The notes beneath the pieces were generated by a model. The model searched no databases, was not told the DNA's origin, and saw only the letters and a program-made list of their open reading frames with translations. A DNA stretch of 33,008 nucleotides from Oscillospiraceae bacterium (GTDB taxonomy: Bacteria; Bacillota; Clostridia; Oscillospirales; Ruminococcaceae). The stretch spans positions 1 to 33,008 of the forward strand of contig WRKZ01000017.1 in NCBI GenBank assembly GCA_009777835.1, read 5' to 3'. Shown in pieces: positions 2,692-27,404 of the stretch (its first letter is position 1; each line of letters begins with the position of its first letter). A program made the position numbers and the translations under genes.

Positions 2692-3866
2692 TGAAGTACA
2701 AGCATCAACAGCTTGTAAACTCCGTAATCGCTGATTAGATACCCAATTTCGTCGAGTGAAGCATACGCATCAAGAAAAGTCAGGTCGGTTTCCTCCACGT
2801 TAAATTCGCACAGGATTTCATACCCTGTTTGGGATTTGCTGTACCGCTCCCCGAACAAGCTTTTCAGCGCGGACGGCGAATCGGCAGTCCAACCGGTATA
2901 GCTGAAGTAATTGTACTCCATTTCGTTTGACGAAACCACATCGGGATACAATGCCGCCCTCCACAAATGCGTTCCGTGCAGGTGCGAATCGCTCACGTTG
3001 AAGTATCTGTGTGAACGAATTCCCTCTTGGTCGTTCCAGGTGACATCGACGTGATACCATTTCGGGTCGGATTCGTCGCCGTAATTAACAAGATTCCATG
3101 CGTGATTCTCGGCTTCCCCTGCAGTCCCCGCAGTCCCCGTGATAATCACACTTTCGATTCCCGCCATCGAAAGCAACATCTTATACGCATGAACATATCC
3201 CTGGCAGACTGCTTTTCCCTCCGCCAGTGCGCCATAGACGTTGAACGCATTTGAATTGTCCGCGTAATCATCATCATACTCGATTAAATCCACCAGTATT
3301 GCATGAATTGCATAGGATTTCTCGAAAACGCTCGTATTTTCGGGATTTTCGAAACCTTCGGTAATTTCCGCCAAAATCGACTTGGCTTTTTCATAGGTTT
3401 CAACTTCTTTTTCACTTAACCGTGAAGAATCCCCGTTTTTATCGGCGGCGAGAATGTTCATATACATCTCATATTGAAGGGTGATTTCGGCTTGCGACTT
3501 CTCGTCATCGGTAAGAATCTCAGCCGCGATTCCCTTAATCCCGTACAGCGACAACAATTCCGAATGAGAATCGTAATAATCATTCAAATCGTCCCACACC
3601 GTGACATCTTTAAGGACTGCCTTGCCGCTTACAGCGAAATCCTCGCTCATTTCCGCAATAAAGCGGTCGAGCTGATAGTGATTCTCGTAAACCGTCTCAA
3701 CAACCGGTTCGATAGTCACTTCCGAGGAGTCCGAAGCGGAATCCCTTCCCCCGGCATCGCGAAACAGGTCGTTGAACGCATCACACCCGACTAATGCGAG
3801 AATCATCGCCAAAATCACTATCGGCGCGATTATTTTTCTCTCGAAACTTTTAAAATTACTTTTCAA
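2688..3866 (-). CDS. transglutaminase-like lipoprotein
   Basis: A 392-residue predicted lipoprotein. The signal peptide ends in a lipobox with Cys28 (ALVGC), so the mature protein should be tethered to the outer face of the membrane. A transglutaminase/papain-like core carries Cys221 (AVCQGYVHAYK), His255 (ENHAWN) and Asp274 (WYHVDVTWND), a complete catalytic triad. The start is TTG at 3866, chosen because AGGAGG (3873-3878) lies six bases upstream and no ATG is placed better. The upstream stop codon overlaps the spacer. Such proteins may crosslink or cleave peptides in the wall; the substrate is unknown. Its position right after a membrane transglutaminase suggests a paired function. An acidic middle segment (residues 90-175) has no recognised domain. 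Confidence 0.8.
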   Translation of the reverse strand: MKSNFKSFERKIIAPIVILAMILALVGCDAFNDLFRDAGGRDSASDSSEVTIEPVVETVYENHYQLDRFIAEMSEDFAVSGKAVLKDVTVWDDLNDYYDSHSELLSLYGIKGIAAEILTDDEKSQAEITLQYEMYMNILAADKNGDSSRLSEKEVETYEKAKSILAEITEGFENPENTSVFEKSYAIHAILVDLIEYDDDYADNSNAFNVYGALAEGKAVCQGYVHAYKMLLSMAGIESVIITGTAGTAGEAENHAWNLVNYGDESDPKWYHVDVTWNDQEGIRSHRYFNVSDSHLHGTHLWRAALYPDVVSSNEMEYNYFSYTGWTADSPSALKSLFGERYSKSQTGYEILCEFNVEETDLTFLDAYASLDEIGYLISDYGVYKLLMLVLQ

Positions 3867-3869
3867 ACT

Positions 3870-6809: not shown

Positions 6810-8149
6810 AACAGCGTGACCCCGCCAAACGATTCGATTTCTTTATCGGTGTCGCCTTTTATGCGAACAACCTTGATTTTCGTCCCGCTCTCCAGATATG
6901 AGAGGAGGTTATCTTGTTCGGAAATGATTTTTTTCAGCTTTGATTTTTCCGGTTTTTCCGGGTTATTTAAGCCTTCTTTTAATTCTCTCGGTTTTTCTTC
7001 GGGTTGAAACGGCGCAATCGCCGCTAAAACGACATTATTACGGAACAGCAATCCCATTGAACGAAGTTTCTCGATTAAATCCTCACTCACCGAAGGCGTA
7101 ACTATATAGACCGCCGATTCGTTGCGCAGTTGGTGATAAAACTCATCGAACAAATCGGTAAAACTCCCCGTGCCGTTCAGATTAAACGGTTCTACCGGGA
7201 GAAATGCCAACTTTCTGCTCAACTCAAAACAATCGGACAGGTTTTCCGGATGTCTGATTTGCGAACCCGTATCTTGATTGCCTTCTTCTGCCGTCGCGTT
7301 CTCTTGATTTGCTTGATACAGGTAAAACGCCGAATTCCCCGACAAAATAATCCGTCGAATAATTGCGAGGGAGGTTTCAATCACCAAATCCGAACCGTGT
7401 AAGACATATTCGGTGGGGAAATCAAGCATTTCACTACAGAAATCGCAGAAAATCAACGATGATTGGTCGTAATTGGACTCCATCTGTTTCACAATCAGCT
7501 CGTCGAGTTTTACCGACAGATTCCAGTGAATATGACGCAACGATTCACCCTCGCGGTATTCCCGAAGGTGAGAAAAAACATCCTTGTTAAATCCGTGGGG
7601 CTTCGGCTGCGAAATCTCGGTATCTTCCTGATTATCACCGCTCAAATATCCAAGCGTGAGTTCCCTGGGGTAAGACATAAGTTTTCGGGGCTCTTTCAAA
7701 TATACCTTAAATTTGAAGATTTTCAAAAGGTCGAAGAATTCCACCCGCTCAACCCCGATAATGTATTCCCCGCGGAAACTCACGACGTTTCGCAGGTTAA
7801 GATTGATTTGTCTGAACGGGTCAAGTGAGATAATCAGCATCTTATTTTGCGGTTTATAAGTCCCTTTTTCGCAGACCTTGACGTAAATTCGAACCGGGGT
7901 CAACGGCATAATAAAGTTGTTTTTGATTTGCAGGTTCAAATTAAAGGCGGATTTCCGCTCGACTACTTCCGGCGGAACGTCCACTTCGGTTTCCATACAG
8001 GATTTCGTAATCAAGCTCAACACAAATGAAATCCCGCATATAAGCAGCACCGTCACCAGAAGCAACGGCATAAGCTGCGAATGATAGGCGTAACACAGTA
8101 TAAACAGAATCACAATCACCGAGATGAAAAACGTCCTGAACTCCCTCAT
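6806..8149 (-). CDS. DUF58 domain protein
   Basis: A 447-residue protein with two adjacent hydrophobic helices at the N-terminus (about residues 8-48), an extended beta-rich region, and the DUF58 signature near residues 195-220 (REYREGESLRHIHWNLSVK). DUF58 proteins have a von Willebrand A-like fold and are nearly always encoded with MoxR AAA+ ATPases and membrane transglutaminases, as here. MoxR lies directly upstream and both junctions are 4-base ATGA overlaps. The biochemical role is not established; MoxR partners are thought to help assemble or mature envelope or secreted complexes. The C-terminal 60 residues are charged and predicted helical. No defect was seen. Confidence 0.88.
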   Translation of the reverse strand: MREFRTFFISVIVILFILCYAYHSQLMPLLLVTVLLICGISFVLSLITKSCMETEVDVPPEVVERKSAFNLNLQIKNNFIMPLTPVRIYVKVCEKGTYKPQNKMLIISLDPFRQINLNLRNVVSFRGEYIIGVERVEFFDLLKIFKFKVYLKEPRKLMSYPRELTLGYLSGDNQEDTEISQPKPHGFNKDVFSHLREYREGESLRHIHWNLSVKLDELIVKQMESNYDQSSLIFCDFCSEMLDFPTEYVLHGSDLVIETSLAIIRRIILSGNSAFYLYQANQENATAEEGNQDTGSQIRHPENLSDCFELSRKLAFLPVEPFNLNGTGSFTDLFDEFYHQLRNESAVYIVTPSVSEDLIEKLRSMGLLFRNNVVLAAIAPFQPEEKPRELKEGLNNPEKPEKSKLKKIISEQDNLLSYLESGTKIKVVRIKGDTDKEIESFGGVTLL

Positions 8150-9105
8150 TGGCTCGTCCTTGTGAACGGCGGCGTAATCCCCCCCGCAATTTCCTTCAGC
8201 ACGCTCAACTCGCTGACTTTACGGATTTTCGCCTCCTGCGTAAGAATCAAACGATGCGCCAACACATGAGGCAGCATATTCAGCACATCTTCCGGGATTA
8301 CGTATGCTCTCCCCGAAACAAATGCGCAACTTTGCGAGGCGCGCATCAGCATAAGGCTCGCCCTGGGACTCGCCCCGAGGGTGACACACCGATGTTCCCG
8401 CGTGGAAGCCACCAAACGGACAATATACTCGGCAATGCTGTTCTCCAAATTGACCTGCCGCACCGAATTGATGATTTCTATCAGTTCCTCTTTCGTGCAT
8501 ATGGGGCGAATCGCCGAAAGCGGATTGGAAAGTTTTCTCTCGCTTATAATGCTTACCTCCTGCTCCAACGTAGGATACCCCATCGAGATTTTCATGAGAA
8601 AACGGTCGAGTTGGGCTTCCGGCAGGGGATACGTCCCCACGAAGCCGAGTTCGTTCTGGGTCGCAATCACCATGAACGGTTTCGGCAAAACGTAGGATTG
8701 AGAATCCACCGTAACCGTCTGTTCCTCCATCGCTTCAAGCAGTGCAGACTGAGTTTTCGGCGAAGTCCGGTTGATTTCGTCTGCCAGAAATATATTACAC
8801 ATGACCAACCCCTGCCGATATTCGAAGACGTTTTTCTCCTTATTAAACATGGTGAACCCGGTAATGTCGGAAGCCATCACGTCCGGCGTGAACTGCGCGC
8901 GCTTGCAAATCAACCCCATTGACCTGCCGAGTGCGGTTGCAAGCGTGGTCTTCCCCACACCGGGGACATCTTCGATAAGTACATGCCCCCCCGAAAGCAG
9001 AGCAATCAAGAGGTATTTGACGACTTCCCGCTTACCCACCACCACCTTCTCGACTTCGTCGGCGATTGCCCGTATTTTCTTATACGATTCTTGTAAATTT
9101 GTCAT
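8146..9105 (-). CDS. MoxR family AAA+ ATPase
   Basis: A 319-residue AAA+ ATPase of typical MoxR length. Walker A is LIEDVPGVGKTTLA (about residues 40-53) and Walker B is NIFLADEINRTSPKTQSALLEAMEE (first part about 103-112). A sensor-1 segment (FMVIATQNE) and arginine-finger region (LPEAQLDRF) follow, then a C-terminal lid domain with TLGASPRASLML. MoxR proteins act as chaperone-like remodelers, usually for a DUF58/vWA partner, which is the next gene (4-base overlap). The start ATG at 9105 follows AAAGGA at a rather long spacing. The 37-base gap upstream separates it from the nucleotidyltransferase gene, so the two could share one transcript. Confidence 0.93.
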   Translation of the reverse strand: MTNLQESYKKIRAIADEVEKVVVGKREVVKYLLIALLSGGHVLIEDVPGVGKTTLATALGRSMGLICKRAQFTPDVMASDITGFTMFNKEKNVFEYRQGLVMCNIFLADEINRTSPKTQSALLEAMEEQTVTVDSQSYVLPKPFMVIATQNELGFVGTYPLPEAQLDRFLMKISMGYPTLEQEVSIISERKLSNPLSAIRPICTKEELIEIINSVRQVNLENSIAEYIVRLVASTREHRCVTLGASPRASLMLMRASQSCAFVSGRAYVIPEDVLNMLPHVLAHRLILTQEAKIRKVSELSVLKEIAGGITPPFTRTSQ

Positions 9106-14509: not shown

Positions 14510-17038
14510 CTAAACATCCAACAATCCATGCTCACGAATTTTCACGATAGCATCCACCGAACAAGACACATCCAATTTCTTGAAAATCAAAGCCATATGC
14601 GATTTAATTGTAGAAGGCTTGATTCCCATTTTCTCCGCCATTTCTTTATGAGTGAGTCCGTCGTTCAAATGATGCAGAATTTTCCTCTGCTGTTCAGTGA
14701 ATTTCAAGTTCTGCGATGTCCTTCCCCCGGTCAGACCTTTTGAATTTTTCGCCTTGACGAGGGCGCGATAATACAACGACTTCACTTCCGAAGCGGTAAG
14801 TTCGCCGTTATAATCCTTCTGAATCACCCGCTTGAGCAGTTTGTGTAACATATTGGAAAGTTCCGCACCGTCATTCACAAACATCTGTATGAACCCGTTT
14901 TCTCTCGAGATGATAATCGCCGATTGGAGGGAATTTAACGCTTCTTCCCGATTTCCCCTGTTTTTCTTCCAGTAAGCGATTGCAAGGAGAATATTCACCT
15001 CAATCAAGTCAAGGGTTCGGCGGTATCGAGTACACATATTCTGCAATTTCTTGAGGAACAAAATCGCGAGATTCCATTCCCCCGACGTGATGTAAGCCCG
15101 CACCGTCGTGAAATGCCGATACAGCTTATAGAACGACAATTCCCCGTGAGAATCGGTGTTATTGCTGTTGGAGAGCCAATCGCGCGCAACAGAAACGTCC
15201 CCTTCATCCAGTTTAAGTCTGCACACGAACGCTTGGAAATTCGCATTGAGGTAGTACGCTTTATGCCGCCGAATCATCCCCCCGATATCTTCCAGGATTT
15301 TACGGCTTTCGCTTTCTTCACCCTGTGCAATCAAGACGGTAGCGAGCAACATATACGAACAAAACTGGGTTTCGGGTGCGAAACTGTCTTTCAAAAGCGC
15401 GTTCGCCTCCGAAGCCAATTCATATGCGGTATCGAGTTCGCCTTTTTCATAAGCGAGTCCGCCGCGAATAAGCCTCTCCATCAAATCGTACTCTTCCCCC
15501 ACCAAAACGCCGACTGTTTTTTTGAGCATCTTCCACTCGGCATCATCGGCATTACAATATTCGGAAAAATCCCGCGCACTACGGTGACAATACGGCATAT
15601 TCTGCGAAATCGACGGCGTGTTCGACTGTCCGAACAAAGACAGGGGGAGTTTCTTCAACCCTTTTGCGACTTCGCGTACACTGTTGCGATAATCCATACA
15701 ACGCAGAAGAACAGCCGTCTGGGCAGAAGCGGGATGCTGAAAAATAATCTTAGGCAGAACCGCAAAGTATCGGTCTAAGTAGGATTCCATATCAGCCCCC
15801 CGCCCTTCCACATAGGAAGACCATGCCTGCACTTCCAGCAAGAACGGATACTCATCCACAATGGATTCATCCACCGATAAGCTGATAATCGACAGGGTTT
15901 CTTCAATGGCGGCATAAGGCGAATTATAGTTGTACATCTTGCGTAAACCCTTTGTGATTCCGCTTTTGTTCTTGGACTTGATGTAATATTCCACCGCTTT
16001 GAAATAATCACCGTTCTTGTAGAACCAATCGCCGACTTTTTTGTAAATCTCACTTTTGCGCTTCTCGTCTTCCCGGTCGAGGGTGTTGCGGAGAAAATCC
16101 ACAAATAAATGATGAAGCCGATACACCCCGGCAGAATCCACACTGATGAAGGCGTTTTCGCGTACAAGCCCGTTAAGGACTTCTTCCCCGTCTTTTCGCC
16201 CGCTCATGTAATTACAGAAAGCGGGTTTAAGCTCATCCTCAACCGATACACACAACAAGAAACTGCGACGTTCGGGCGACCACTTATCCCAAATCTGCTC
16301 CCGAATAAACGTCTCCAAATAAGACGAAATCATTTTTCTGCCGGTTTTCTCCCTGCCGGACAACATCAGTGCGTTCAGCCCGATTGCCCAGCCCCCGGTC
16401 TCCTCACAGGTCTTCTGCGCTTGATATTCGCTCATTGTTCGTCCGCGTAAGGCGAAAAACTCCTTGATTTCACTCGGGGTAAACCTGAACTCTTCCCCGC
16501 CGATTACAGTAATCTGCTCCTTCACCACAAACTCCGAAAAACAGTCCGGCGGTTCGGCACGACTGAGAAAACACAGACTCACGAACTCCGACAATTCCTC
16601 GATGAACGTCGGCAACCGTTTCAAGACTTCGCAATCGGTGAGCAGGTGCAAATCGTCCAACACAAGAATAGCCTCGCCTCTTTCGTTTCCCTCGGTGTTT
16701 TCGCGACTGTACAAGCCGAACGAAATGAGCGCGCTTTCCAGGAACTCAAACGGTGCAGACGCAAACGTATTCTGCGAAACGAGCGATTTAAGCTCGACAT
16801 TGCCCGACTGAATCGTGAGAAGTGCCATTACAAGGCGTTTGCAGAATTTGCCGGGGTTCTTCCCCGCAGATTCGCTGATTGCGAGCCATGCACCGGGACC
16901 TTTTCGCCGTGAAAGCCACATTCTCACCGAAAATGTTTTGCCGTAACCGGCAGGCGCGTGAATGTACATAAATCGCCCCGCGGCGACCGAATCCAAACGT
17001 TCCATTACCCTCTTCCTCGGGATAGCAGAATGATTCAC
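14510..17038 (-). CDS. MalT/LuxR-type ATP-dependent transcriptional regulator
   Basis: An 842-residue STAND-type regulator. Walker A is HAPAGYGKT (27-35) and Walker B is AILVLDDLHLL (about 123-133). A winged-helix/ARC2-like region follows, then a long run of TPR-like helices (about 340-740). The C-terminal LuxR helix-turn-helix is LKFTEQQRKILHHLNDGLTH (from about residue 775), then TIKSHMALIFKKL. By analogy with MalT it would bind ATP and an inducer, oligomerise and activate transcription. The start is GTG at 17038, with AGGAGG (17049-17054) ten bases away. It is divergent from the cyclase operon across 267 bases, so that operon is the natural target candidate. The inducer is unknown. Confidence 0.88.
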   Translation of the reverse strand: MNHSAIPRKRVMERLDSVAAGRFMYIHAPAGYGKTFSVRMWLSRRKGPGAWLAISESAGKNPGKFCKRLVMALLTIQSGNVELKSLVSQNTFASAPFEFLESALISFGLYSRENTEGNERGEAILVLDDLHLLTDCEVLKRLPTFIEELSEFVSLCFLSRAEPPDCFSEFVVKEQITVIGGEEFRFTPSEIKEFFALRGRTMSEYQAQKTCEETGGWAIGLNALMLSGREKTGRKMISSYLETFIREQIWDKWSPERRSFLLCVSVEDELKPAFCNYMSGRKDGEEVLNGLVRENAFISVDSAGVYRLHHLFVDFLRNTLDREDEKRKSEIYKKVGDWFYKNGDYFKAVEYYIKSKNKSGITKGLRKMYNYNSPYAAIEETLSIISLSVDESIVDEYPFLLEVQAWSSYVEGRGADMESYLDRYFAVLPKIIFQHPASAQTAVLLRCMDYRNSVREVAKGLKKLPLSLFGQSNTPSISQNMPYCHRSARDFSEYCNADDAEWKMLKKTVGVLVGEEYDLMERLIRGGLAYEKGELDTAYELASEANALLKDSFAPETQFCSYMLLATVLIAQGEESESRKILEDIGGMIRRHKAYYLNANFQAFVCRLKLDEGDVSVARDWLSNSNNTDSHGELSFYKLYRHFTTVRAYITSGEWNLAILFLKKLQNMCTRYRRTLDLIEVNILLAIAYWKKNRGNREEALNSLQSAIIISRENGFIQMFVNDGAELSNMLHKLLKRVIQKDYNGELTASEVKSLYYRALVKAKNSKGLTGGRTSQNLKFTEQQRKILHHLNDGLTHKEMAEKMGIKPSTIKSHMALIFKKLDVSCSVDAIVKIREHGLLDV

Positions 17039-17227: not shown

Positions 17228-17256
17228 TTGACAATCCGCATATGAAGTGTTATACT
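17228..17256 (+). promoter_or_regulatory. sigma-A promoter of the cyclase operon
   Basis: TTGACA (17228-17233) and TATACT (17251-17256) are spaced by exactly 17 bases. TGT directly precedes the -10, giving an extended -10 as well. The perfect -35 suggests strong basal expression. The first gene starts 50 bases downstream, after CGGAGGG (17287-17293). The rest of the 17039-17305 gap is AT-rich; no clear inverted-repeat operator was found. Confidence 0.85.
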
Positions 17257-17305
17257 GATATGGGAGTATGAGCGTCCTGCCTGATTCGGAGGGAATAGTA
17301 TACAT

Positions 17306-18910
17306 ATGCTGAAGAAAATCGCAGCTTCGAAATCGAAGTTAATTATAGTATCGGCTTTAATCTTCGCGGTTGTCACCGGGATTATCCTTGCCGTATGGAG
17401 ACCGTGGAGCGCACGCGCAAACACCGATTTCACCGTTTCCGGGGATGCCGTGGCGGTAATGACCACGAAAATCACCGTTTTAGACGGAATTTGGGATGCT
17501 AAAAGATACTCCGATGAGTTATATTTCCCGTTAGGATTAGCAGTCACAAACGGGAATGTTGTGGTTGCCGACTCCATGTGCGACCGAATCGTGATTCTCG
17601 ACGGGGAGAAAAACCGAAGAATCGGCAGGCCCGGTCAATACGGGCTGACCTACTTTGATTCCGGCGCACTGAAAGACGGATACCGCGAGAACGCTTTGTT
17701 CATGAAACCGTCCGACGTGGCGATTTCGTCGAACGGCGACGTAATAATCGCCGACACCGGGAACCACGTGATTCGCCGCATGGACGAGGAATTTGTCGTC
17801 ACCATTGCAGGTAACGGAACAGCGGGCTACACCAACGGAAAAGAAGGCAAGGCACAGTTCAACTCACCCCGCTCGGCGGCGATTGATTCCCAAGGGAACA
17901 TCTACGTTGCCGACACCTTTAACCACTGTATTCGCCTAATTGACCCGGAAGGGAACGTTTCCCTCTTTGCGGGGGTACCCGAACAAGCGGGATATTCCGA
18001 CGGCAGAAACGACCGCGCGATGTTCCGTGAACCGTCCGGGATTGCCGTTTCTGTCACGGGGGATATTTACGTGGCGGATTCCGGTAATCACACTATACGG
18101 AAAATCTCCGACGGAAACGTCTCCACCGTGGCGGGGAAACCCGGTGAAATCGACCGTGTGTCGGGATATCCCGAAGGCGGATATCGCGACGGAGACAGCA
18201 ACGAGGCGCAATTCCGCTTTCCGCGCTCAATCTCAATGCTGAACAGGAACACCGTTCTGGTCGCAGACAGTATGAATCATGTTGTGCGCCTGGTTGACCT
18301 CACGAAAGGTGAAACCCGCACACTAATCGGAAACGGAACAGCGGGATTGTATTATGAGTCTGCCGAAAACGCGAAACTGACCCGCCCCGAAGGAATCGGC
18401 ACCGACGGTGAAAAACTGTACGTATCGGATACCGTTAATAATCGGGTGATTTCGTTTCCGCTGAACGCACGAATCCTGGAAGGTCGCCCCTCACGAGAAG
18501 ATTTACTGGAATCCACCGGGATTGCCACCGCCTCAAAATATTCCTATAACGGCGATATACGCATTTTCGTGAAGGATGTTCGGGTGGATATGGAACGGCT
18601 TCACCCGTGGAACACCGAAGAATACATCTATGTCCCGATTCGTCCGCTGCTGGAAGCACTCGGTGCGGATATTACGGTTGACGAAAAGAGCGGACTGCTC
18701 ACCGTGACTATTCTGGAAGAAAGCACGGTTTTAGCGCGTGACCGTGACTATTTTATCCAAAAGGGTGCGGCAGTCACCACCCTGGACGAAATTACACGGC
18801 TTTTCCCCTACGTTCTGGAATGGTATCCCGAATACAGCCTTATAGCGGTTCATGTCCCGTCCGATTTAGAAGGTCTGCTCGAATTACAGGGAGGGAATGA
18901 AAATGAATAA
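17306..18910 (+). CDS. NHL-repeat protein with copper-amine-oxidase-like C-terminal domain
   Basis: A 534-residue membrane-anchored protein, probably facing outward. One N-terminal helix (12-30) acts as uncleaved anchor or signal. Six NHL repeats follow, near residues 74-98, 134-158, 187-212, 243-267, 305-330 and 360-384, each with a VADTxNHxIR-type core, enough for one six-bladed propeller. Residues 418-517 match the copper amine oxidase N-terminal-like domain common in Clostridia surface proteins (IYVPIRPLLEALGADITVDEKSGLLTV, start about 441); these bind no copper and serve as a structural or ligand-binding stalk. First gene after the promoter; it overlaps the cyclase start by 8 bases. It may sense or bind an extracellular polymer, which is inference. 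Confidence 0.85.
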   Translation: MLKKIAASKSKLIIVSALIFAVVTGIILAVWRPWSARANTDFTVSGDAVAVMTTKITVLDGIWDAKRYSDELYFPLGLAVTNGNVVVADSMCDRIVILDGEKNRRIGRPGQYGLTYFDSGALKDGYRENALFMKPSDVAISSNGDVIIADTGNHVIRRMDEEFVVTIAGNGTAGYTNGKEGKAQFNSPRSAAIDSQGNIYVADTFNHCIRLIDPEGNVSLFAGVPEQAGYSDGRNDRAMFREPSGIAVSVTGDIYVADSGNHTIRKISDGNVSTVAGKPGEIDRVSGYPEGGYRDGDSNEAQFRFPRSISMLNRNTVLVADSMNHVVRLVDLTKGETRTLIGNGTAGLYYESAENAKLTRPEGIGTDGEKLYVSDTVNNRVISFPLNARILEGRPSREDLLESTGIATASKYSYNGDIRIFVKDVRVDMERLHPWNTEEYIYVPIRPLLEALGADITVDEKSGLLTVTILEESTVLARDRDYFIQKGAAVTTLDEITRLFPYVLEWYPEYSLIAVHVPSDLEGLLELQGGNENE

Positions 18911-20666
18911 GGCATATAAAAAGTTGAGGGTGACGATTATACTTGCGTTACTGCTTATTTTCGGGTTAAGTCAATACTTCGGCGTTATCGTCGGGCCCGA
19001 CAACTTGATTTACGACAATCTGTTGAGTTCGCCGGGTGAACCGTCCGACAACATAATCATAATCGGAATGGACGAACGCAGTATAAACGAAATAGGCTCG
19101 TGGCCCTGGCCGCGATTTTACGTAGCCGATGCAATCGAAAAACTGGCGGAATACGATGTCGCCGCAATCAGCGCGAGTATACTGTACGATGCCTACAGCA
19201 ACGAAGACTATGACAATGCCCTCGTGAAAGCCGCCGCTTTGACCGAGCGTCTCGTTCTCGGCGGAATGGCATATATTTCAGATGAGGGGTATAACGTAGA
19301 AATCGGAATCGAAGACTACATCAGTCCGTTTGACGAACTCGACAGAGTAGTCACAACGGGATTCCTGAATGCCGAAAACGATGGTGACGGGGTCATGCGT
19401 CGTGCGTTGACTTCTTTGAGATACGGCGACACCCTCGTCCACTCATTAGCTTACGAAACCTATCTGAAAGCCTGCGAAGTAAAAGGAATCACCCCGAATG
19501 AAGTTCCGGTCGATAACGTGGGGACTTTCCCGATTAACTATACGTCACGGCCCGGCGGATACAAAGTGTATTCTTTCTGGGCGTTGATTAACGATGAACT
19601 GGAACCCGCAATATTCAAAGATGCGATTGTACTCATCGGCCCGTACGCCCAGGGAATCGGCGGAGGGAACTATCCCACCCCGCTCGAAAAAGCAACCCTT
19701 ACCTATGGTGTCGAAATCAATGCGAATATAATCCAAAATATGTTCGAAGGCGATTTCAAGGAATCCGCACCGCAATGGCTGAACTTCGGGATTATGGCGG
19801 CATCGGTTTTAATCATGCTCCTACTCCTGCACAGACTGAAACCGTTGTGGAGCGTCGCGCTCACCCTCGGACTGGCGGCAATCCTGATTATTACCGCATT
19901 AATCGCGTACTCACAATTTGGTATCATAATCAAATGCGGCGACACGATTATTCTGTTGTTATTCTGCTGGCTCACCAACATGATTTTCGGCATTTTGACC
20001 GCACAAAACGAGAAACAGCACATTCAGGGGCTGTTCGGACGATTCGTCGCACCGGAGGTTGTTAACGAAATCATTTCCGGCGGGGTGGACATTCAGCTCG
20101 GCGGAAGCGAGAAAGAAATCACGGTCTTATTCGTGGATATACGCGGATTTACCGCTTTTTCGGAAGCTAACCCCCCCGAAAAAGTAGTCAAAATGGTGAA
20201 TCGTTATCTTGACCTTACCAGTCGCTCGATTCAAAGCAACGGCGGGACGATTGACAAGTTCATCGGGGACGCTACGATGGCGATGTTCAACGCACCGAAT
20301 GAGCTTGCCGAACACGCACTCTGTGCCGTGAAGGCGGCATGGGCAATGAAGGTGGGTTCACAATCCCTGCGGGAAGAAATTCTGCAACAGTATGAGGTTG
20401 ATTTGCAGTTCGGTGTGGGAATCAACACCGGTAACGCGGTAGTGGGGAACATGGGTTCGGATTTTCGCATGGACTATACCGCAATCGGCGACACGGTGAA
20501 TACCGCGGCACGACTGGAATCCAATGCGCAAAAGGGACAGATTATCATTTCGGAGGCGACGTATAAACTCGTGAAAGACCACGTGGAAGTCACCGATTTG
20601 GGGATTCTCATGGTGAAGAACAAAAAAACGGGAATCCAAATATACAGCGTAGACGACGTATTATAA
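18903..20666 (+). CDS. CHASE2-domain class III adenylate cyclase
   Basis: A membrane-bound cyclase of 587 residues from the start at 18903. AGGGAGGG (18888-18895) ends seven bases before it; an in-frame ATG at 18897 sits too close. Positions below count from 18897. A helix at 11-32, an extracytoplasmic CHASE2 sensor (33-290), three helices (about 295-367) and the cyclase domain (about 400-589) follow in order. Metal ligands are Asp414 (LFVDIRGFT) and Asp458 (KFIGDATMAMF). The base-specifying pair is Lys454 and Thr528 (DYTAIGDTVN), the class IIIb pattern for ATP. Transition-state Asn535 and Arg539 are present, so the enzyme should be active and make cAMP. CHASE2 probably senses an external signal. 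Such cyclases are uncommon in Clostridia. Confidence 0.93.
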   Translation: MNKAYKKLRVTIILALLLIFGLSQYFGVIVGPDNLIYDNLLSSPGEPSDNIIIIGMDERSINEIGSWPWPRFYVADAIEKLAEYDVAAISASILYDAYSNEDYDNALVKAAALTERLVLGGMAYISDEGYNVEIGIEDYISPFDELDRVVTTGFLNAENDGDGVMRRALTSLRYGDTLVHSLAYETYLKACEVKGITPNEVPVDNVGTFPINYTSRPGGYKVYSFWALINDELEPAIFKDAIVLIGPYAQGIGGGNYPTPLEKATLTYGVEINANIIQNMFEGDFKESAPQWLNFGIMAASVLIMLLLLHRLKPLWSVALTLGLAAILIITALIAYSQFGIIIKCGDTIILLLFCWLTNMIFGILTAQNEKQHIQGLFGRFVAPEVVNEIISGGVDIQLGGSEKEITVLFVDIRGFTAFSEANPPEKVVKMVNRYLDLTSRSIQSNGGTIDKFIGDATMAMFNAPNELAEHALCAVKAAWAMKVGSQSLREEILQQYEVDLQFGVGINTGNAVVGNMGSDFRMDYTAIGDTVNTAARLESNAQKGQIIISEATYKLVKDHVEVTDLGILMVKNKKTGIQIYSVDDVL

Positions 20667-20694
20667 AATAATGAAGTAAGCAGGGGGTGGGAAA

Positions 20695-21558
20695 ATGATT
20701 TTTGAAACGGTATTCCTCGGAACGAACGGTTCGTGCGCATATAATAACGGCAACAGGTCGAAATACGGTACGAATACCTCCTGTGTCGCGGTAAGAATCA
20801 ATAACGACATCATCTTGTTAGACACCGGTACCGGGGTCATGAATCTGGCTCTGCCGCAAGCGAAATTAATCGACGGCAACACCCGCAAAGAGATTAACGT
20901 GATGTATTCGCACTATCACAACGACCATACCTGCGGACTGTTGTTCCTGAAATCCCTCTTCGACAGTGAAAGCAAGGTGTGCTTTTTCGGGGAACGCCAA
21001 CTCAATCCCTGGCAAAAAATACCCAGAGCGGTAAAAGCCATCATCGCCGGTACTATCTCACCGCCGTCCTGCCCAATCACGGTGTCGGACTTGAAAGCCG
21101 AACTTGAATACGTCACCGCCAAAACCGCGAAAGGCAAGTTCCGGGTTGGTGAACACTTCAGCATAATGGTGAAAACCCACCCTCTTTCCCACCCGGGCGG
21201 TGCGATGGGCTACCGACTCGAATATGCCGGAAGGTCACTCTGCTACTGTACCGACGTTGACCTGGCAGAACACCAAATCGACGGTGAATTTGATGAAGAA
21301 CTGATAAAATTTGTAAAAAATGCCAACCTGCTGATTTGCGACTCTTTCTTCCCGGAAGGAACGAAGCAACCGGGTTGGGGACACTCCACCCCGCAGGAAT
21401 GTGCAAGACTGGCAGAAAAAGCAAACGTCAAAAAACTCGCGCTTTTCCACTACAATCCCGAATTAACCGACGCTCAAATCGATAGTTTGGAACAAGAGGC
21501 GCAGGTGATTTTCCCAAACACCTTCGCGTCTCGTGATATGATGAGGTTTTCATTATGA
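20695..21558 (+). CDS. metallo-beta-lactamase-fold hydrolase
   Basis: A 287-residue soluble MBL-fold enzyme. The metal motif HxHxDH is at His73, His75, Asp77 and His78 (YSHYHNDHTCG), with further ligand candidates His166 (LSHPGG), Asp187 (CTDVD) and His252 (LFHYNPE); His230 (GWGHST) may be catalytic. The general form recalls PhnP/RNase Z-like phosphodiesterases. It lies 28 bases after the adenylate cyclase and overlaps the next gene by 4 bases, so hydrolysis of cAMP or another phosphodiester is a reasonable guess. Class II cyclic-nucleotide phosphodiesterases also have this fold, but their HxHLDH motif differs by one residue. Other substrates are possible. The start follows a GGGGGTGGG ribosome site. 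Confidence 0.85.
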   Translation: MIFETVFLGTNGSCAYNNGNRSKYGTNTSCVAVRINNDIILLDTGTGVMNLALPQAKLIDGNTRKEINVMYSHYHNDHTCGLLFLKSLFDSESKVCFFGERQLNPWQKIPRAVKAIIAGTISPPSCPITVSDLKAELEYVTAKTAKGKFRVGEHFSIMVKTHPLSHPGGAMGYRLEYAGRSLCYCTDVDLAEHQIDGEFDEELIKFVKNANLLICDSFFPEGTKQPGWGHSTPQECARLAEKANVKKLALFHYNPELTDAQIDSLEQEAQVIFPNTFASRDMMRFSL

Positions 21559-24500
21559 CTAAATTACATTCAATTAGAAAAATCACGGCGTTTTTACTGC
21601 TTATCTCGATGTTGGTTTCCGTGTTTCCGTTGTTTGAAACGGCGGAAGCCGCTCTCCAAGAAACCGAAGGGCCGCGGGTCACGCAGGTTCGCGGAGATAC
21701 GTGGCTTTATCGCGGGGGCGGATACGCACCTATAACCATTTACCGCGGAATGTTACTCCAGGCGGGTGACTTGATTGAAACCGGGGTCGAAAGCTCGGTC
21801 GCGTTAACCTACTACGGAAAAGACATCACGGTGGGGGAATTGACCCGCCTGTCGATTGACTCCCTCTGGAACAAACACAATCGTGACGACAGTTCCATCA
21901 GCTTGATTGAAGGCATGGTGAAGAACAAAGTCCATGTTGAACTTAACAAGAACTCCCGCAATGTGATTCGCGCGTCGAACACCATTGCAGGCGTTCGCGG
22001 AACCGAATACATTCTGATTTACAGCCGTATGGGCTTCCCCGATTACGGTGACGAAAACCCCTACGTGCGAATCAAAGTCATAGAGGGAACCGTACGTTTC
22101 GACCTGGAGGTTGAGGACGACGACGGCAAACTCTTTATGCAGACTTTTCTAATCAGTGCCGACGGAATCATCCCGATTGAAGAAACCCTCGACGGGGAAC
22201 AAGTCCCGGTCAGCAAAAACACGGGGCTGAAAACCTTCACGATTCCCGTGAAAGACCTTGACACCACCATTCTCGAAGGTCTCGTGAACAATGAAGATAT
22301 CATCGCGAATAATCCGGATTTTATTCAAAACATCATAGAAGAGCTGGAAATCAGGAGCGAACAAGGCGAAGAAAACAAGAAAACCGCACCCGAAAAACCA
22401 CCGGCAGAACTGATTTTCGATTCGGAATCCGATGAAATCCTGCCGAATCTCCCTGTACCGGAAATCCGGGGTGAACCCGACAATTCTAACAACAGCTCCG
22501 GCAACAATTCTAACAATAACAATCAAAATAACGGAAATCAAACCGAACCCGCGGCAACCACCACTCAACCCCCCATGACCCTGCCGCTCTCTCCGCCGGG
22601 CGCGAACACCACACGAATCGTTGCCGTCGCGAACACCACTGCTCCCGCAACCCCCGCGACTACCATAACCACAACGACTTCCGCAACTACGACTACTGCC
22701 GCGGCAACCACCGTGATTACCGCCGAAACCACTCCCCGCGCAACCACCGCAGAAGTCACTACCACCGCCGCGACCGCGGCTACCACCACCCGCGCAACCA
22801 CCGTGACCACCACCCGCGCAACTACGGCGATTTCCACGTCGGAGGCGACTACCCGCGAAACCACCCCGGAAACCTCCGCTACAACGATTGAAACTACGTC
22901 GGTTTCGGTGACACCCGCAACCACCGTGACTACCACGACCGAAACTTCCGCGACTACTACGACCGAAACTTCCGCGACGACTACGACCGAAACTTCCGCG
23001 ACGACTACGACCGAAACTTCCGCGACGACTACGACAGCGACTACTACGACAGCGACTTCCGCGACTACCACGACAGCGACTTCCGCGACAACCACGACAG
23101 CGACTTCCGTGACTACCACGACAGCGACTACTACGACAGCGACAGAGACTACCACGACCGAAACTTCCGTGACTACTACGACTGCGACTTCCAGAACCAC
23201 CTCAACTTCTGCGACGACTACCGACCCGGGTACGCCGGAAGTCACGAGTGAGGTTTCTTTCATCGAATATCCGGAAATCGTAGTGGAATACTATGAGGGG
23301 TTGAGACTCTTTGACATCGAACTCGACGAAGGATACGATTGGGATGAAGAAGACCACCGCAATCAAGGTGAGTTGTTTGCGAACGAAGGCAACTCGGCAG
23401 AACCGCGCTACGGTGCATGGCTTATCCACCCCGACAGCGACGAGCCGGTTCATGGGTATATCACGGTTCGTGTGATGAAGGCTACGTTGACTGTAGAAGA
23501 ATTGATAGACCTCTTTGAAAACAGAAAAGACGAATATGGAGACCCCAATCCTGATTTCGCTCTCAGATGGAACATCGAGGATTTAGTAAGTCCTCCTACT
23601 CCCCATACTGCCACTTACGGTACTACGTTATTCAACATTGCATTACCGAGCGGTGGTCAATTCTCATGGGAAGAAGACCAGTATGAGACCACTGTCGGAG
23701 ATGTAGGGATACAACAATTCACAGTACTCTTCACGATTCTCTTCTCGATTGACGGTGGTCCAATAATACCCAATCCGAATTACAATCCGATTGAACTCAA
23801 CGTTACGATAGAAGTCCTTCCGAAACAACTCATTATTGCGTCTGTCACCCATACAAAGCAATATGACGGAAGTAATATCGCTACGTCGGGCGCGGAATTC
23901 GAACTTAGCGGGATACTACCGGGCGATGAGGTCAATGTAACATCGTATGAGATACGGTACGCGGAGAGTTCGGAGTTTCCTCATGCCGCAAATGCCGGAA
24001 ATACGCTTATAAATATGCCGACTATAACCATTGATAACTCCAATTACAATTACACCGGATATCCGGAGTACCCCGTTTCAGGAATTACACCTGCCAATTC
24101 CACTTTAAACGACCACAATGAGGACATTCCCGACGGTTTCATTGCTGACTACGGCTCAACCCTCGGAGACTTAGACCTGTCTGACTTCCCCGGTTGGTCG
24201 TGGGAATCTCCGACCACCCCTGTCGGTGAGACGGGAACACGAACCCACTCGATGTCCTTCCTACCGTTTAACAATGTTTGCACAGATGATTGTGACCCCA
24301 TGGTTTGCGTGCCTTACGGAAACTATCTCCCTATCACGGGAATAGAGGTTGAAATCGAGGTGGGCGATGCACCGCCAGGCTCATCGGAGTCCAATCCATT
24401 CGAAATCCTCGGCGAAGCAGACCTCCGCAAAGTCGGAACAGGTGTTGACGGTTGGAATCTCAATTCCCACTATAAGTTGATGGGTGACATCACCCTCACC

Positions 24501-25100
24501 GGGACGAACAACTGGACACCGATAGGCTTGCCAACGATAGAAAACAGATTCATCGGGACGTTTAACGGAAACGGCTATCTAATCAGCGGATTAAACCATT
24601 CAACCGGTAGCGACCAATACATCGACCGAAGCGGTGCTGAAGGTCTGTTCGGGGCAATCGGTGCGGGCGGTGTAGTGAAAAATCTCGGAGTTGAGGTAAA
24701 CTACAGTTTTGGTCAATCGAATGTAGATTACATTGGCACGATTGCCGGACACAATTACGGTACAATTGAGTACTGCTACTCACTCGGCTCAATAACAGGA
24801 GGAGGACGCTACAAAGGCGCAATAGCGAGTTATAATTATGGGCCTTCCGGGACAATAAGAAACTGCGTAGCTTTAAACACAAGTGTAGGAAGTGAAGGAC
24901 ATAGAATAACGAACAGTAGCGGGACATTACGCGATAACTATTCTAACCGCGACATGACGAGTAATAGCGTCACTTCATTCGGTCTTAACCAAATATCCGG
25001 TGAAAGAATCCTCTCAGGCAACGTGCAGACCGTTCAAGATTTGCTCGACAGCGTGTTCAGAAATCCGCCCAATTTACGAACTTTGCTTAATTTACAATAA
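21555..25100 (+). CDS. large exported FecR / Thr-rich / YDG / GLUG protein
   Basis: A 1181-residue exported protein. A signal peptide (1-33, ending TAEAA) precedes a FecR domain (about 40-185) with GDTWLYRGGG, LLQAGDLIETG and RASNTIAGVRGTEYILIY. An acidic and Asn-rich linker (250-330) leads to a low-complexity Thr/Ala region (350-557). MBG/YDG-like beta domains include IASVTHTKQYDGSNIATSG (near 770-850). GLUG-type repeats close the protein (985-1090). No LPXTG, SLH or other anchor was found, so attachment is unknown. FecR domains act as extracytoplasmic signal or polymer-binding modules and often neighbour CHASE2 cyclases. The 4-base overlap with the hydrolase gene supports one operon. The Thr-rich part is probably a stretched, perhaps glycosylated stalk. 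Confidence 0.85.
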   Translation: MTKLHSIRKITAFLLLISMLVSVFPLFETAEAALQETEGPRVTQVRGDTWLYRGGGYAPITIYRGMLLQAGDLIETGVESSVALTYYGKDITVGELTRLSIDSLWNKHNRDDSSISLIEGMVKNKVHVELNKNSRNVIRASNTIAGVRGTEYILIYSRMGFPDYGDENPYVRIKVIEGTVRFDLEVEDDDGKLFMQTFLISADGIIPIEETLDGEQVPVSKNTGLKTFTIPVKDLDTTILEGLVNNEDIIANNPDFIQNIIEELEIRSEQGEENKKTAPEKPPAELIFDSESDEILPNLPVPEIRGEPDNSNNSSGNNSNNNNQNNGNQTEPAATTTQPPMTLPLSPPGANTTRIVAVANTTAPATPATTITTTTSATTTTAAATTVITAETTPRATTAEVTTTAATAATTTRATTVTTTRATTAISTSEATTRETTPETSATTIETTSVSVTPATTVTTTTETSATTTTETSATTTTETSATTTTETSATTTTATTTTATSATTTTATSATTTTATSVTTTTATTTTATETTTTETSVTTTTATSRTTSTSATTTDPGTPEVTSEVSFIEYPEIVVEYYEGLRLFDIELDEGYDWDEEDHRNQGELFANEGNSAEPRYGAWLIHPDSDEPVHGYITVRVMKATLTVEELIDLFENRKDEYGDPNPDFALRWNIEDLVSPPTPHTATYGTTLFNIALPSGGQFSWEEDQYETTVGDVGIQQFTVLFTILFSIDGGPIIPNPNYNPIELNVTIEVLPKQLIIASVTHTKQYDGSNIATSGAEFELSGILPGDEVNVTSYEIRYAESSEFPHAANAGNTLINMPTITIDNSNYNYTGYPEYPVSGITPANSTLNDHNEDIPDGFIADYGSTLGDLDLSDFPGWSWESPTTPVGETGTRTHSMSFLPFNNVCTDDCDPMVCVPYGNYLPITGIEVEIEVGDAPPGSSESNPFEILGEADLRKVGTGVDGWNLNSHYKLMGDITLTGTNNWTPIGLPTIENRFIGTFNGNGYLISGLNHSTGSDQYIDRSGAEGLFGAIGAGGVVKNLGVEVNYSFGQSNVDYIGTIAGHNYGTIEYCYSLGSITGGGRYKGAIASYNYGPSGTIRNCVALNTSVGSEGHRITNSSGTLRDNYSNRDMTSNSVTSFGLNQISGERILSGNVQTVQDLLDSVFRNPPNLRTLLNLQ
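22915..23220 (+). repeat. in-frame tandem repeat coding a Thr-rich stalk
   Basis: Tandem imperfect copies of a 24-base unit, best conserved at 22937, 22961, 22985 and 23009 (GACCGAAACTTCCGCGA core), code for TETSATTT. They continue as shorter ACGACAGCGACT units coding TATTT/TATSATT. All keep the reading frame. Length variation between strains is likely. Confidence 0.85.
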
Positions 25101-25127
25101 TTCACACCCAACCGAAAGGAGAAATAA

Positions 25128-26063
25128 ATGATAAATATTGAAAACATCAATCATAACGAAAGCGGGACAGAATTCTACAAAAAAGGTGAGGTAATCATCA
25201 GGGATAATGATTTTGAGTGCAGTAAAATGTACATCATAATCGAAGGCTCGGCGAAGGTCTACAAAAACTACGGCGAAATGGGGGAAGTATCCGTCGCACG
25301 GCTCTCAATGGGGGACTTTTTCGGTGAGATGTCGCTGTTCCTCGGGCGGGGGCGCACCGCAACGGTGGTCGCTGATGAGGACATAACCCTCATCGCGCTT
25401 GACAAAGACAACGCGCTGGACTTCTTCCGTGAACAGCCGGAAGCGACCTATTCGCTCATATCGACCTTGTGTTCCCGCTTGGTGAACACCAACGTCAACA
25501 TGGCGGACAACAGCGTACGGTTCGAGAAAATCGTTATAGGCCTGAACGACGAGAAAGAGAAGTTCAAGTCTGCCGCTAACACCGACGCGTTGACCGGTGT
25601 GTTCAATCGTCGCTGTTTCATGGACACCGCCGCGAAAATGCTCAAGGATTCTTTCGAGAACGGCAATCGCGCGTTCGTCACCATGATTGATATTGACTTC
25701 TTCAAGAAAGTCAACGACACCTACGGGCATCAGGCGGGAGACGAAACCCTCAAGCGCATGGCGGCGGTAGTGGCAAACACCCTGCGGGAGAGAGACCTGT
25801 TCGCGCGGTACGGCGGGGAGGAGTTCATTATGCTCTTCACCGGATTGACAAGTGACGCCGCTCAAAAAATGGTGGAACGTGTCCGCGAAAACATCAAGGC
25901 AATGGAAATCATTTTCGAGGATTTGCGAATCAGGGTCACGGCAAGCTTCGGTATTGCCGAAGTCGTTGCCGCGGAAGGGATTGAATCGGCAATCGCCAAA
26001 GCCGATGAAGCCTTGTACGAAGCCAAACAAGGCGGTCGTGACAGAAGCGTTTTCTATAATTAG
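25128..26063 (+). CDS. cyclic-nucleotide-binding GGDEF diguanylate cyclase
   Basis: A 311-residue soluble protein. Residues 15-115 form a cNMP-binding (Crp-type) domain with the phosphate-binding cassette MGDFFGEMSLFLGRGRTATV; Glu67 and Arg76 are the expected ribose and phosphate contacts, followed by Thr77. A helical linker (about 120-147) leads to a GGDEF domain (150-311). That domain has DALTGVFNRR, IDFFKKVNDTYGHQAGD and the active-site GGEEF (229-233). An RxxD product-inhibition site is at 220-223, five residues upstream as expected. It should convert two GTP into c-di-GMP, with activity set by cAMP. It follows the FecR gene by 27 bases with an AAAGGAG site and no visible promoter, so it belongs to the cyclase operon. 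Confidence 0.93.
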   Translation: MINIENINHNESGTEFYKKGEVIIRDNDFECSKMYIIIEGSAKVYKNYGEMGEVSVARLSMGDFFGEMSLFLGRGRTATVVADEDITLIALDKDNALDFFREQPEATYSLISTLCSRLVNTNVNMADNSVRFEKIVIGLNDEKEKFKSAANTDALTGVFNRRCFMDTAAKMLKDSFENGNRAFVTMIDIDFFKKVNDTYGHQAGDETLKRMAAVVANTLRERDLFARYGGEEFIMLFTGLTSDAAQKMVERVRENIKAMEIIFEDLRIRVTASFGIAEVVAAEGIESAIAKADEALYEAKQGGRDRSVFYN

Positions 26064-26067
26064 TATA

Positions 26068-26156
26068 GGTTCTGATTTACTCTGCAAGAGCTGCCTCGCC
26101 GCCAAGCGGGCAAGCTCTTGTTTTGTTTTATTAGTTCCGGTTCTGATTTACTCTGC
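26068..26156 (+). repeat. 18-base direct repeats flanking a terminator-like palindrome
   Basis: GGTTCTGATTTACTCTGC occurs at 26068-26085 and again at 26139-26156, on either side of an inverted copy of the GCAAAACAAGAGC palindromic repeat. The second copy abuts the stop codon of the convergent terminase gene. Confidence 0.85.
26085..26131 (+). terminator. Rho-independent terminator of the cyclase operon
   Basis: CAAGAGCT (26085-26092) pairs with AGCTCTTG (26113-26120), extended by GCC/GGC with one bulged A. The T-rich tract TTTTGTTTTA follows. The element is an inverted copy of the palindromic repeat found at 14286-14460. It closes the transcription unit 21 bases after the GGDEF stop. Confidence 0.8.
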
Positions 26157-27404
26157 CTAAAACCAGAATCTCATTCCGGCGATGACTTGATTCAAGCCGT
26201 AGCGCATCGCGTCCATGAGGTGATTGTATTTCCCCGACGGGATGTTGGTGCGGAAACCCAGCGGGTTTGTCGTGAATGAATAGTTTGAAACCTCCTTCAT
26301 AAAATTAACACATCGCGGATGAATCACGATTTTGTGTGCCTGAATAAACTGGATTCCGTGGTTGACGCTGTCCGCACCTTTTCGTGCCGCGTCAATCCGA
26401 CTGAGACCGCGCAGGCGCAGTTCGTCTATACTTTTCGGCTCGGCAGAATCGGCGTAAATCCTCTCTTTACCGTATCCCATAGCGGTAATTCTCTCGGCAA
26501 TTTCACGGTTAGACATTCCGAAGCCGTACATTTCATCGAAAACGTAAATAATCCGCCCGGTGATATCCACCAACATACAGCACAGCGCGCTCGGGTCGTT
26601 GGTGTAGCCGAAATCCAAGCCGAACGCCGAAACAAATCGCGGTGAACCCGAAATCCTTGCACGGACTTTTTCAAGGTCGAACTCCGCCGACTCCCAATTC
26701 TCGTAGACTAAACCGTCTGCCACCCCCCAATCCCCCAGTCCGACTACTTTGTATCGTTTCGGGTTATCGTTCTTCACCCGCTCAAACAGAAGCTTGTCCT
26801 CTTCGTCCAACCACTCATTCGTTTCGTGATTGGTGGTAAGGGCTAACACGTTTTCGCCGCCCTTATCGAAGAATCTGCGTTTTAGCCAGTGGGTTCCGCT
26901 CCACGGATTAAACGTCAAGGTCAGTTGCTTGAAGAGACCCGGAGGGAGTTTCCCCCTCACCGACTCATCCAGCATATTGAAATCATCCTCCCGGTCTATT
27001 TCAAATGCTTCTTCCACCCAGACCCAACACAATTTCCCTCTTTCGGTTGTAATACTTGCGAGGCGCATCGCATCATACAACCCCCGGAAGAAAATCTTTC
27101 CTCCTTTAGAATAACTCATTTCCAAAGGGGAGATTTTACACTTCCAATCATCGGCGACCCCCAGCCTGTCGATTGCCCACTTCAACTCGGTAAAGCAGGA
27201 ATCCTTGAGCGAATTGTATACCTTCCTCACCGCTAACAAATTCGCGCCGGGGTGTTTCATCATATTATAAATGTACCATAACGCCGCCGTCTTGGATTTT
27301 TTTGAAGCCCTCCCTCCTTTCACGACACGGTATCTCCCCTCGAAATCGCAGAACTCATCATACCCGCCGCCGATTATTTCTTTGAAATCCTTGTCTTCTA
27401 ACAT
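26157..27404 (-). CDS. phage terminase large subunit, orphan (PBSX/Terminase_3-like)
   Basis: A 415-residue full-length TerL, the motor that pumps DNA into phage heads and cuts it. Walker A is VVKGGRASKKSKT (27-39) and Walker B is LCWVWVEE (125-132). A coupling segment TLTFNPWSGTHW follows at about 162-173. The nuclease half has Asp264 (GLDFGYTNDP), Asp319 (IYADSAEP) and Asp398 (NHLMDAMRYG), all acidic metal-ligand positions present. The length is normal and there is no frameshift. No small terminase, portal, capsid or other phage gene is in the window. GAAAGGAG precedes the ATG at 27404 and a candidate promoter sits just upstream. It could be a prophage relic under selection or part of an unrecognised element. 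Confidence 0.9.
   Translation of the reverse strand: MLEDKDFKEIIGGGYDEFCDFEGRYRVVKGGRASKKSKTAALWYIYNMMKHPGANLLAVRKVYNSLKDSCFTELKWAIDRLGVADDWKCKISPLEMSYSKGGKIFFRGLYDAMRLASITTERGKLCWVWVEEAFEIDREDDFNMLDESVRGKLPPGLFKQLTLTFNPWSGTHWLKRRFFDKGGENVLALTTNHETNEWLDEEDKLLFERVKNDNPKRYKVVGLGDWGVADGLVYENWESAEFDLEKVRARISGSPRFVSAFGLDFGYTNDPSALCCMLVDITGRIIYVFDEMYGFGMSNREIAERITAMGYGKERIYADSAEPKSIDELRLRGLSRIDAARKGADSVNHGIQFIQAHKIVIHPRCVNFMKEVSNYSFTTNPLGFRTNIPSGKYNHLMDAMRYGLNQVIAGMRFWF

Follow-up and report, generated by a model that had tools for sequence, protein, structure and literature searches.

Does a single operon carry a signal from the cell envelope to cyclic AMP (cAMP), and from there to cyclic di-GMP (c-di-GMP)? 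The question is raised by five genes at positions 17306–26063 of contig WRKZ01000017.1 of an Oscillospiraceae bacterium, all on the + strand. The window analyzed here is the whole stretch of 33,008 nucleotides. A preliminary description had named the five products as an NHL/CuAO-like sensor, a CHASE2 adenylate cyclase, a metallo-β-lactamase-fold (MBL) hydrolase, a FecR protein, and a cNMP-binding GGDEF protein, and had proposed that they form such a relay. The product names hold: a Pfam scan of 17 window proteins, used to assign product families, identified four of the five, and the FecR protein was recognized with a profile built from seven proteins. The relay itself stands in part. An intact cyclase, an intact nucleotide-binding pocket, an intact GGEEF motif with its I-site, the synteny of a related genome (G046), and the parallel offered by GAF-GGDEF proteins speak for it, whereas its exact form is not conserved in G046, where the motif is changed, or in a second relative, G020. 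On balance, and as judged from the sequence, we find it rather likelier true than false that the five genes form a self-contained cyclic-nucleotide unit, coupled to the envelope, that feeds c-di-GMP synthesis.

The source of the proposed signal is the second gene (18903–20666, + strand), a CHASE2 class III adenylate cyclase of 587 residues. The ORF (open reading frame) may start at 18897 or 18903, the former giving 589 residues. The protein contains CHASE2 (PF05226, E = 1e-41) and Guanylate_cyc (PF00211, E = 9e-29) domains, and its hydrophobic segments lie at the N-terminus and in a cluster at about 292–367. All the catalytic residues are present, as had been claimed: D412, K452, D456, T526, N533, and R537 are invariant across 11 aligned cyclases. 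We take D412 and D456 to be the metal-binding aspartates, the K452/T526 pair to be the signature of class IIIb adenylate cyclases, and N533 and R537 to complete the catalytic set. Of the solved structures, CyaB (3r5g) matches best (E = 1.4e-38), and its Lys and Thr are shared. That is, the sensor, the membrane helices, the PF00211 domain, and the residues are those of a class IIIb adenylate cyclase with CHASE2, and its predicted product is cAMP. In the assembly, which is 95% complete, the PF00211 match is unique to this protein; other cyclase classes lay outside the search.

At the far end of the proposed relay, the last gene (25128–26063, + strand) encodes a protein of 311 residues with a CAP-type cNMP-binding domain and a GGDEF domain (Pfam cNMP_binding and GGDEF). 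Hydropathy gives no membrane segment, and Pfam gives neither a GAF nor an EAL domain, so the protein is of neither the Lcd1 nor the Bd1971 type discussed below. The Glu and Arg of the CAP-type pattern G-E-x-x-L...R-[ST]-A are found at G66-E67...R76. In an alignment with E. coli CRP, these two residues correspond to E72 and R82 (conventional numbering), which we take to be cyclic-nucleotide-binding residues; the ligand is expected to be cAMP. The active site, G229GEEF, is intact (PF00990, E = 1.8e-43), and R220xxD223 (R220ERD) lies five residues ahead of it. An RxxD sequence at this distance from a GGDEF motif is an optional inhibitory site (I-site).

The rest of the genome makes these features stand out. 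PF00027 is found in just one further protein, a Crp-type regulator encoded on contig C10, and there both pocket residues are missing. The other readable GGDEF proteins are degenerate: a response-regulator protein reads ERGKF, and a GGDEF-EAL protein, the sole EAL match of the genome, reads SDEVF. Contig C10 also encodes a protein that we presume, by motif, to be HD-GYP-like. Among the three readable GGDEF proteins, the cNMP-GGDEF protein alone looks active. One operon would then bring together the genome's only PF00211 cyclase, its only CAP-type receptor whose pocket is intact, and its only diguanylate cyclase that is both readable and intact.

The third gene (20695–21558, + strand) encodes an MBL-fold hydrolase of 287 residues (Pfam Lactamase_B_2) with no membrane segment by hydropathy. 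Its metal ligands, H73xH75xD77H78, H166, D187, and H252, are invariant columns in 20 aligned sequences, and PF12706 is found in 20 of 20. All 20 are hit by the NCBIfam model for cyclic-nucleotide phosphodiesterases (E ≤ 1e-5, best 1.5e-21) and by RNase Z models as well. The operon protein matches NF041851, the model which we take to stand for Rv1339, with E = 2e-11 and 43.8 bits, the cut-off of 400 not being reached, and it matches the YhfI structure 6kns with E = 1e-4. Its RNase Z matches lie mainly over the C-terminal part; with TIGR02651 it scores 97.5 bits in a split match, against a cut-off of 292.95. A separate full-length RNase Z homologue is encoded on contig C5 (266.7 bits, itself under the TIGR02651 cut-off). 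Other cyclase-linked MBL proteins show weak, below-cut-off matches to the Anti-Pycsar Apyc1 model (L074, 1.4e-7; L163, 4e-4; L140, 2e-4). Because the metal ligands are kept, the phosphodiesterase model and YhfI are matched, and the genome has a separate RNase Z homologue, the protein probably serves the operon as its cAMP phosphodiesterase. It follows that the unit would have an off-switch.

The two remaining genes encode the putative envelope proteins. The first (17306–18910, + strand) encodes a protein of 534 residues with an NHL β-propeller and a Cu_amine_oxidN1 domain. It has a single N-terminal membrane segment at residues 12–30, and its orthologues in G046 and G020 are 57% and 64% identical. 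The fourth (21555–25100, + strand) encodes a FecR-domain protein of 1181 residues, laid out as a signal-peptide-like segment, the FecR domain at 41–183, a Thr-rich linker (119 Thr in 245 residues), and a long C-terminal part. Pfam reported no family in the 1181 residues. The FecR domain was found (E = 2e-18, Z = 1000) with the profile, whose seven FecR-type source proteins come from other loci; three of the seven were scanned, and those three match PF04773. A FecR-type protein of L162, outside the profile, has no PF04773 match. Surface signaling of the FecIRA type is not indicated, as neither a FecI ECF (extracytoplasmic function) sigma factor nor a TonB receptor is found among the 17 window proteins scanned. 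Because of the hydropathy segments, the NHL propeller, CHASE2, and FecR should face outwards, and the cyclase domain, the MBL protein, and the cNMP-GGDEF protein should be cytosolic.

The five genes are closely spaced. The gaps of −8, 28, −4, and 27 nt given earlier are reproduced when the cyclase start is taken as 18903, just downstream of a GGAGGG. A sigma-70-like promoter, TTGACA-17-TATACT with TG ahead of the −10, lies at 17228–17256 (+ strand). It scores 11/12, more than any other of the 17 sites that the scan returned, where 9.3 sites were expected at the looser cut-off of the scan. The claim of one promoter is sound as to this strong site and less so as to its uniqueness, since weaker + strand matches lie within the operon (10/12 at 20251 and 23311; 9/12 at 20641, 22285, 25073, and 25213). 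The terminator is confirmed: a hairpin at 26084–26121 is followed by a U-rich tail, the intrinsic terminator spanning 26084–26130 (+ strand), and the segment 26064–26140 folds at −31.5 kcal/mol (z −4.6). The pattern scan did not return this terminator despite its good folding. The operon is likely transcribed as a single unit, to judge from this layout.

These parts suggest the following sequence of events. Outside the membrane, the NHL/CuAO_N and FecR proteins would modulate the CHASE2 sensor of the cyclase, which would then produce cAMP. The MBL hydrolase would reset the signal by hydrolyzing cAMP. Binding of cAMP to the CAP-type domain of the cNMP-GGDEF protein would re-pack the helix between that domain and the GGDEF domain, and c-di-GMP synthesis would change, most likely upward. 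By analogy with CRP, residues at about 110–150 may form the C-helix, extended as a coiled coil; cAMP would order this coiled coil and so bring two GGDEF domains together.

Do these genes stay together in relatives, as a relay would lead one to expect? The comparison set was the 99 most related genomes, its own included. The cyclase query was matched in 25 of them at E ≤ 1e-20, and in 20 of those 25 the match is either a CHASE2-type cyclase or closely related to its catalytic domain. Among the 20, the G003 cyclase ends at a contig end, and that of G021 is without the CHASE2 part. The latter (G021:C30; L067:3337-4191) is a catalytic-domain relative of 284 residues, about 70% identical. The answer as to conservation is mixed. 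All five genes are present in G046, where cNMP-DUF2225, NHL, cyclase, FecR (3528 residues), MBL, and cNMP-GGDEF genes follow one another on one strand with small gaps. G020 has four, in the order MBL-NHL-cyclase-FecR, after which the contig ends; NHL and cyclase are about 500 bases apart, and there is no cNMP protein. G003 has the cut cyclase, a cNMP-DUF2225 gene, and an MBL gene. Of the other 98 genomes searched, one has a full-length cNMP-GGDEF orthologue.

More generally, a cNMP-domain gene lies within 6 kb of the cyclase in 8 of 22 loci read, the window included, where 0.09 is expected from 65 PF00027 matches in the 135.5 Mb of 60 genomes; since the loci are related, the test overstates the case. 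The eight are the window, G002, G003, G035, G046, and G050, plus G066 and G090, in which PAS-type cyclases without CHASE2 stand beside a small cNMP protein. The commonest cNMP partner in cyclase loci is a cNMP-DUF2225 fusion, for which we know of no activity. Such fusions were seen in L065, L068, L077, L082, L166, L178, and L224, for the most part close to CHASE2 cyclases and in many cases next to FecR.

A second kind of partner joins related cyclases to GGDEF. In L139, L140, L145, and L159, a single MBL-GAF-GGDEF ORF directly follows the CHASE2 cyclase; such a chain possibly fuses a diguanylate cyclase to a cyclic-nucleotide phosphodiesterase. In L163, L176, L194, and L202, separate MBL and GAF-GGDEF genes lie side by side; in L163 and L202 they are on the strand opposite to the cyclase, and in L202 the distance to it is about 6 kb. 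GAF and GGDEF are Pfam matches in all eight loci, with the MBL part of L140 and L145 slightly under the cut-off, and the active sites of the GAF-GGDEF proteins read GG[DE]EF. A GAF-GGDEF orthologue occurs in 9 of the 99 genomes, all 9 of which have the cyclase (present in 20 of 99). The Fisher p for this co-occurrence is 1e-7, or 3e-6 within the genus, uncorrected for kinship. The two genes are within about 2.1 kb on the same contig in five of the nine and on different contigs in four. On the tree, the GAF-GGDEF label needs eight changes, at least seven by well-supported branches, gains and losses pooled. The GAF domain of L073, one of the nine, matches 4mcw best, then 1ykd, an adenylate cyclase which we take to be CyaB2, and then PDE10A, PDE6, PDE5, and PDE2A; these are, we presume, mostly cyclic-nucleotide-binding GAFs. 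Because the window protein is CAP-type and these partners are GAF-type, related cyclases are paired with GGDEF via two unrelated nucleotide-binding domains. This pairing is the strongest comparative argument for a link from cAMP to c-di-GMP.

Beyond these relatives, 84,980 species genomes were scanned and the best 80 loci kept, 79 of them with a focal CHASE2 cyclase and mostly Bacillota by record titles. ORFs near the cyclase (507, within 4 kb) were compared with ORFs farther away (485), the profiles having been iterated on the same ORFs and kinship being uncorrected. FecR ORFs number 42 near against 2 far (p 7e-11), MBL ORFs 25 against 2 (p 5e-6), and NHL ORFs, more weakly, 10 against 2 (p 0.04). 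No recognized partner is present in 19 of the 79 loci, some of which have little flank. Seven Paenibacillus loci have a cyclase-FecR-NHL/CuAO arrangement and fall with the window in a 15-row group of the tree (SH-aLRT 99). In Paenibacillus paridis (L134:7367-9985), a cNMP domain fused to a sodium:sulfate-symporter-type transporter is encoded directly upstream of a CHASE2 cyclase; this transporter is possibly under cAMP control. To summarize, the widely recurrent core is cyclase, FecR, and MBL, with NHL in some loci, and the cNMP-GGDEF output is a rare variant. We would propose only tentatively, at somewhat less than even odds, that one envelope module of CHASE2 cyclase, FecR, NHL, and MBL has come to be paired, repeatedly, with a diguanylate cyclase of its own via a CAP-type or a GAF-type domain, so that cAMP directly sets c-di-GMP in Bacillota.

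Several observations weigh against the relay. The cNMP-GGDEF orthologue of G046 reads GGGMF, has no RxxD and a shorter linker, and is probably not a diguanylate cyclase; because of GGGMF, catalysis is not conserved in the sole full orthologue. G020, which is 97% complete, has no PF00027 match, although its FecR gene is cut by the contig end. In 398 genomes of the phylum, the matches listed at E ≤ 1e-30 include no full-length relative of the cNMP-GGDEF protein; weaker relatives could be missed at this cut-off. Taken alone, cNMP and GGDEF ORFs are not enriched near the cyclase in the 79 loci (2 against 2, and 10 against 6). A cNMP-DUF2225 protein is also encoded in G010 (L224), where PF00211 is not matched. 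In the window's own genome, a PilZ search gave no match, and a fourth GGDEF gene is present as a fragment at a contig start, its active site off the contig. The MBL protein scores 103 and 98 bits with RNase Z models, above the 44 bits of its phosphodiesterase match. The best match of the L073 GAF, 4mcw, is a metal-dependent phosphohydrolase. In the pocket, the Thr after the Arg is also found in an aligned cGMP-dependent (cyclic GMP-dependent) kinase site, and the equivalent of CRP T127 is Ile in G046, so the adenine-contact position is not conserved.

Some of these observations would suit a simpler scheme in which the conserved unit is the cAMP module of CHASE2 cyclase, FecR, NHL, and MBL, and the GGDEF part is a binding or scaffold domain, there being no relay. 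The G046 protein, which keeps its pocket (GETSL...R-T-A) with an altered motif and no I-site, would fit, as would L068, L077, and L082, where cNMP-DUF2225 genes occur with no GGDEF ORF in the stretch read, and the seven Paenibacillus loci, likewise without a GGDEF ORF in the stretches read. We nonetheless think this scheme unlikely, given the intact GGEEF and RxxD and the strong PF00990 match of the window protein, and the retention of GG[DE]EF in the GAF-GGDEF partners of related cyclases. It is clearly improbable, in our judgment, that the cAMP acts elsewhere and that the cNMP domain of the last protein senses another ligand or none. The four genes of G020 and the PF00027 proteins of genomes without a PF00211 match (e.g., G010, G012, G023, and G027) are what this would predict. 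Yet the phosphate-binding-cassette residues are kept in the window domain but not in the second PF00027 protein of the genome, genes for cyclases and cNMP domains are neighbors far above expectation, and the cNMP-DUF2225 protein of G010 has lost the pocket Arg, in the one case read.

The messenger linking the proteins could also be cGMP. Because of the kinase-type Thr and the unconserved T127 position, the pocket does not decide between cAMP and cGMP. The cyclase points to cAMP, its Lys/Thr pair, the class IIIb signature, being invariant in 11 relatives and its best structure match being CyaB, and we rate a cGMP link as very improbable. A cAMP-to-c-di-GMP relay thus remains our preferred account of the operon.

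The flanks add some context. A MalT/LuxR-type regulator of 842 residues (14510–17038, − strand, by family scan) is divergently oriented upstream of the operon; because G046 has a 46% orthologue in the same divergent position, it is a candidate regulator of the operon. Directly downstream is a lone phage terminase large subunit gene (26157–27404, − strand). A PHROGs scan of the five ORFs neighboring it gave no match, and it is probably a prophage remnant. An 18-base exact direct repeat, GGTTCTGATTTACTCTGC, at 26068–26085 and 26139–26156, flanks the terminator hairpin and ends beside the terminase stop codon; none is expected by chance. Flagellar genes lie 3.6 kb downstream of the operon, with a FlgK-like gene at 29649 and a flagellin-type N-terminus at 31617. 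Motility is a common target of c-di-GMP, and these genes may be a reminder of that role only. Farther away, 2688–9105 (− strand) is a tight run encoding two transglutaminase-core proteins, a DUF58 protein, and a MoxR-type AAA ATPase.

cAMP signaling is little studied in Bacillota. If the relay is real, it shows a use of cAMP in anaerobes of this kind, and CHASE2, FecR, and NHL proteins gain a common envelope-sensing role in this phylum. The cyclase-linked MBL family and the cNMP-DUF2225 proteins would likewise receive a predicted function. An operon that holds the source, the likely sink, the receptor, and the output would make a clean test case.

How does the cassette compare with known systems? 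In the portions covered of the open-access literature on CHASE2, FecR, NHL, MBL, cNMP-GGDEF, and DUF2225, this cassette was not found described; the parts of PMC11139211 and PMC1183210 consulted contain nothing on a cAMP-to-c-di-GMP relay, and PMC9239204 contains both CHASE2 and FecR. For the sink, the comparison is with the atypical class-II phosphodiesterases Rv1339 and YhfI, the former an MBL-fold phosphodiesterase modeled on the latter (PMC9293780). The operon MBL protein shares their fold, PF12706, and metal residues, but it scores far under the NCBIfam cut-off and higher with RNase Z models. For the input, the CHASE2 cyclases CyaD1, CyaD2, and CyaK of Sinorhizobium meliloti respond to an outside signal via an envelope partner, NsrA, and act through Clr, and the FecR-domain protein SMc02177 is among the Clr targets (PMC13001267, PMC5498481). 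The authors of PMC5498481 found no support for a role of the Clr targets in perceiving the signal. Both systems have CHASE2 cyclases and a FecR connection, whereas the S. meliloti output is a transcription factor and the partner is the outer-membrane NsrA, in place of the GGDEF and NHL proteins of the window. In Leptolyngbya, Dgc2 is a CHASE2-PAS-GGDEF protein (PMC10581220). It ties CHASE2 sensing to c-di-GMP synthesis, as we propose for the window, but in one protein and without a cAMP step, whereas CHASE2 of the window drives a nucleotide cyclase.

For the output, Bd1971 of Bdellovibrio is a cNMP-EAL protein, a cAMP-sensing c-di-GMP phosphodiesterase (PMC6717892). It too joins a CAP-type cNMP domain to a c-di-GMP enzyme, and 6hq3 matches the window domain with E = 4e-6. 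Its enzyme is an EAL hydrolase, however, and that of the window a GGDEF synthase, so, should the window enzyme be activated, cAMP would affect c-di-GMP in the opposite sense. Lcd1 of Leptospira is a cAMP-sensing GAF-GGDEF protein activated by cAMP, as cited in PMC6717892. Like the window protein, it has a cyclic-nucleotide-binding domain ahead of GGDEF, but this domain is GAF rather than CAP-type cNMP, and the GAF-GGDEF partners found in the genus are the closer parallel. Lcd1 is the one precedent named, in the sources consulted, for a direct, non-transcriptional activation of c-di-GMP synthesis by cAMP. Thus, the cassette is a new combination of known signaling parts, and the precedent for its proposed cAMP-gated diguanylate cyclase is Lcd1.

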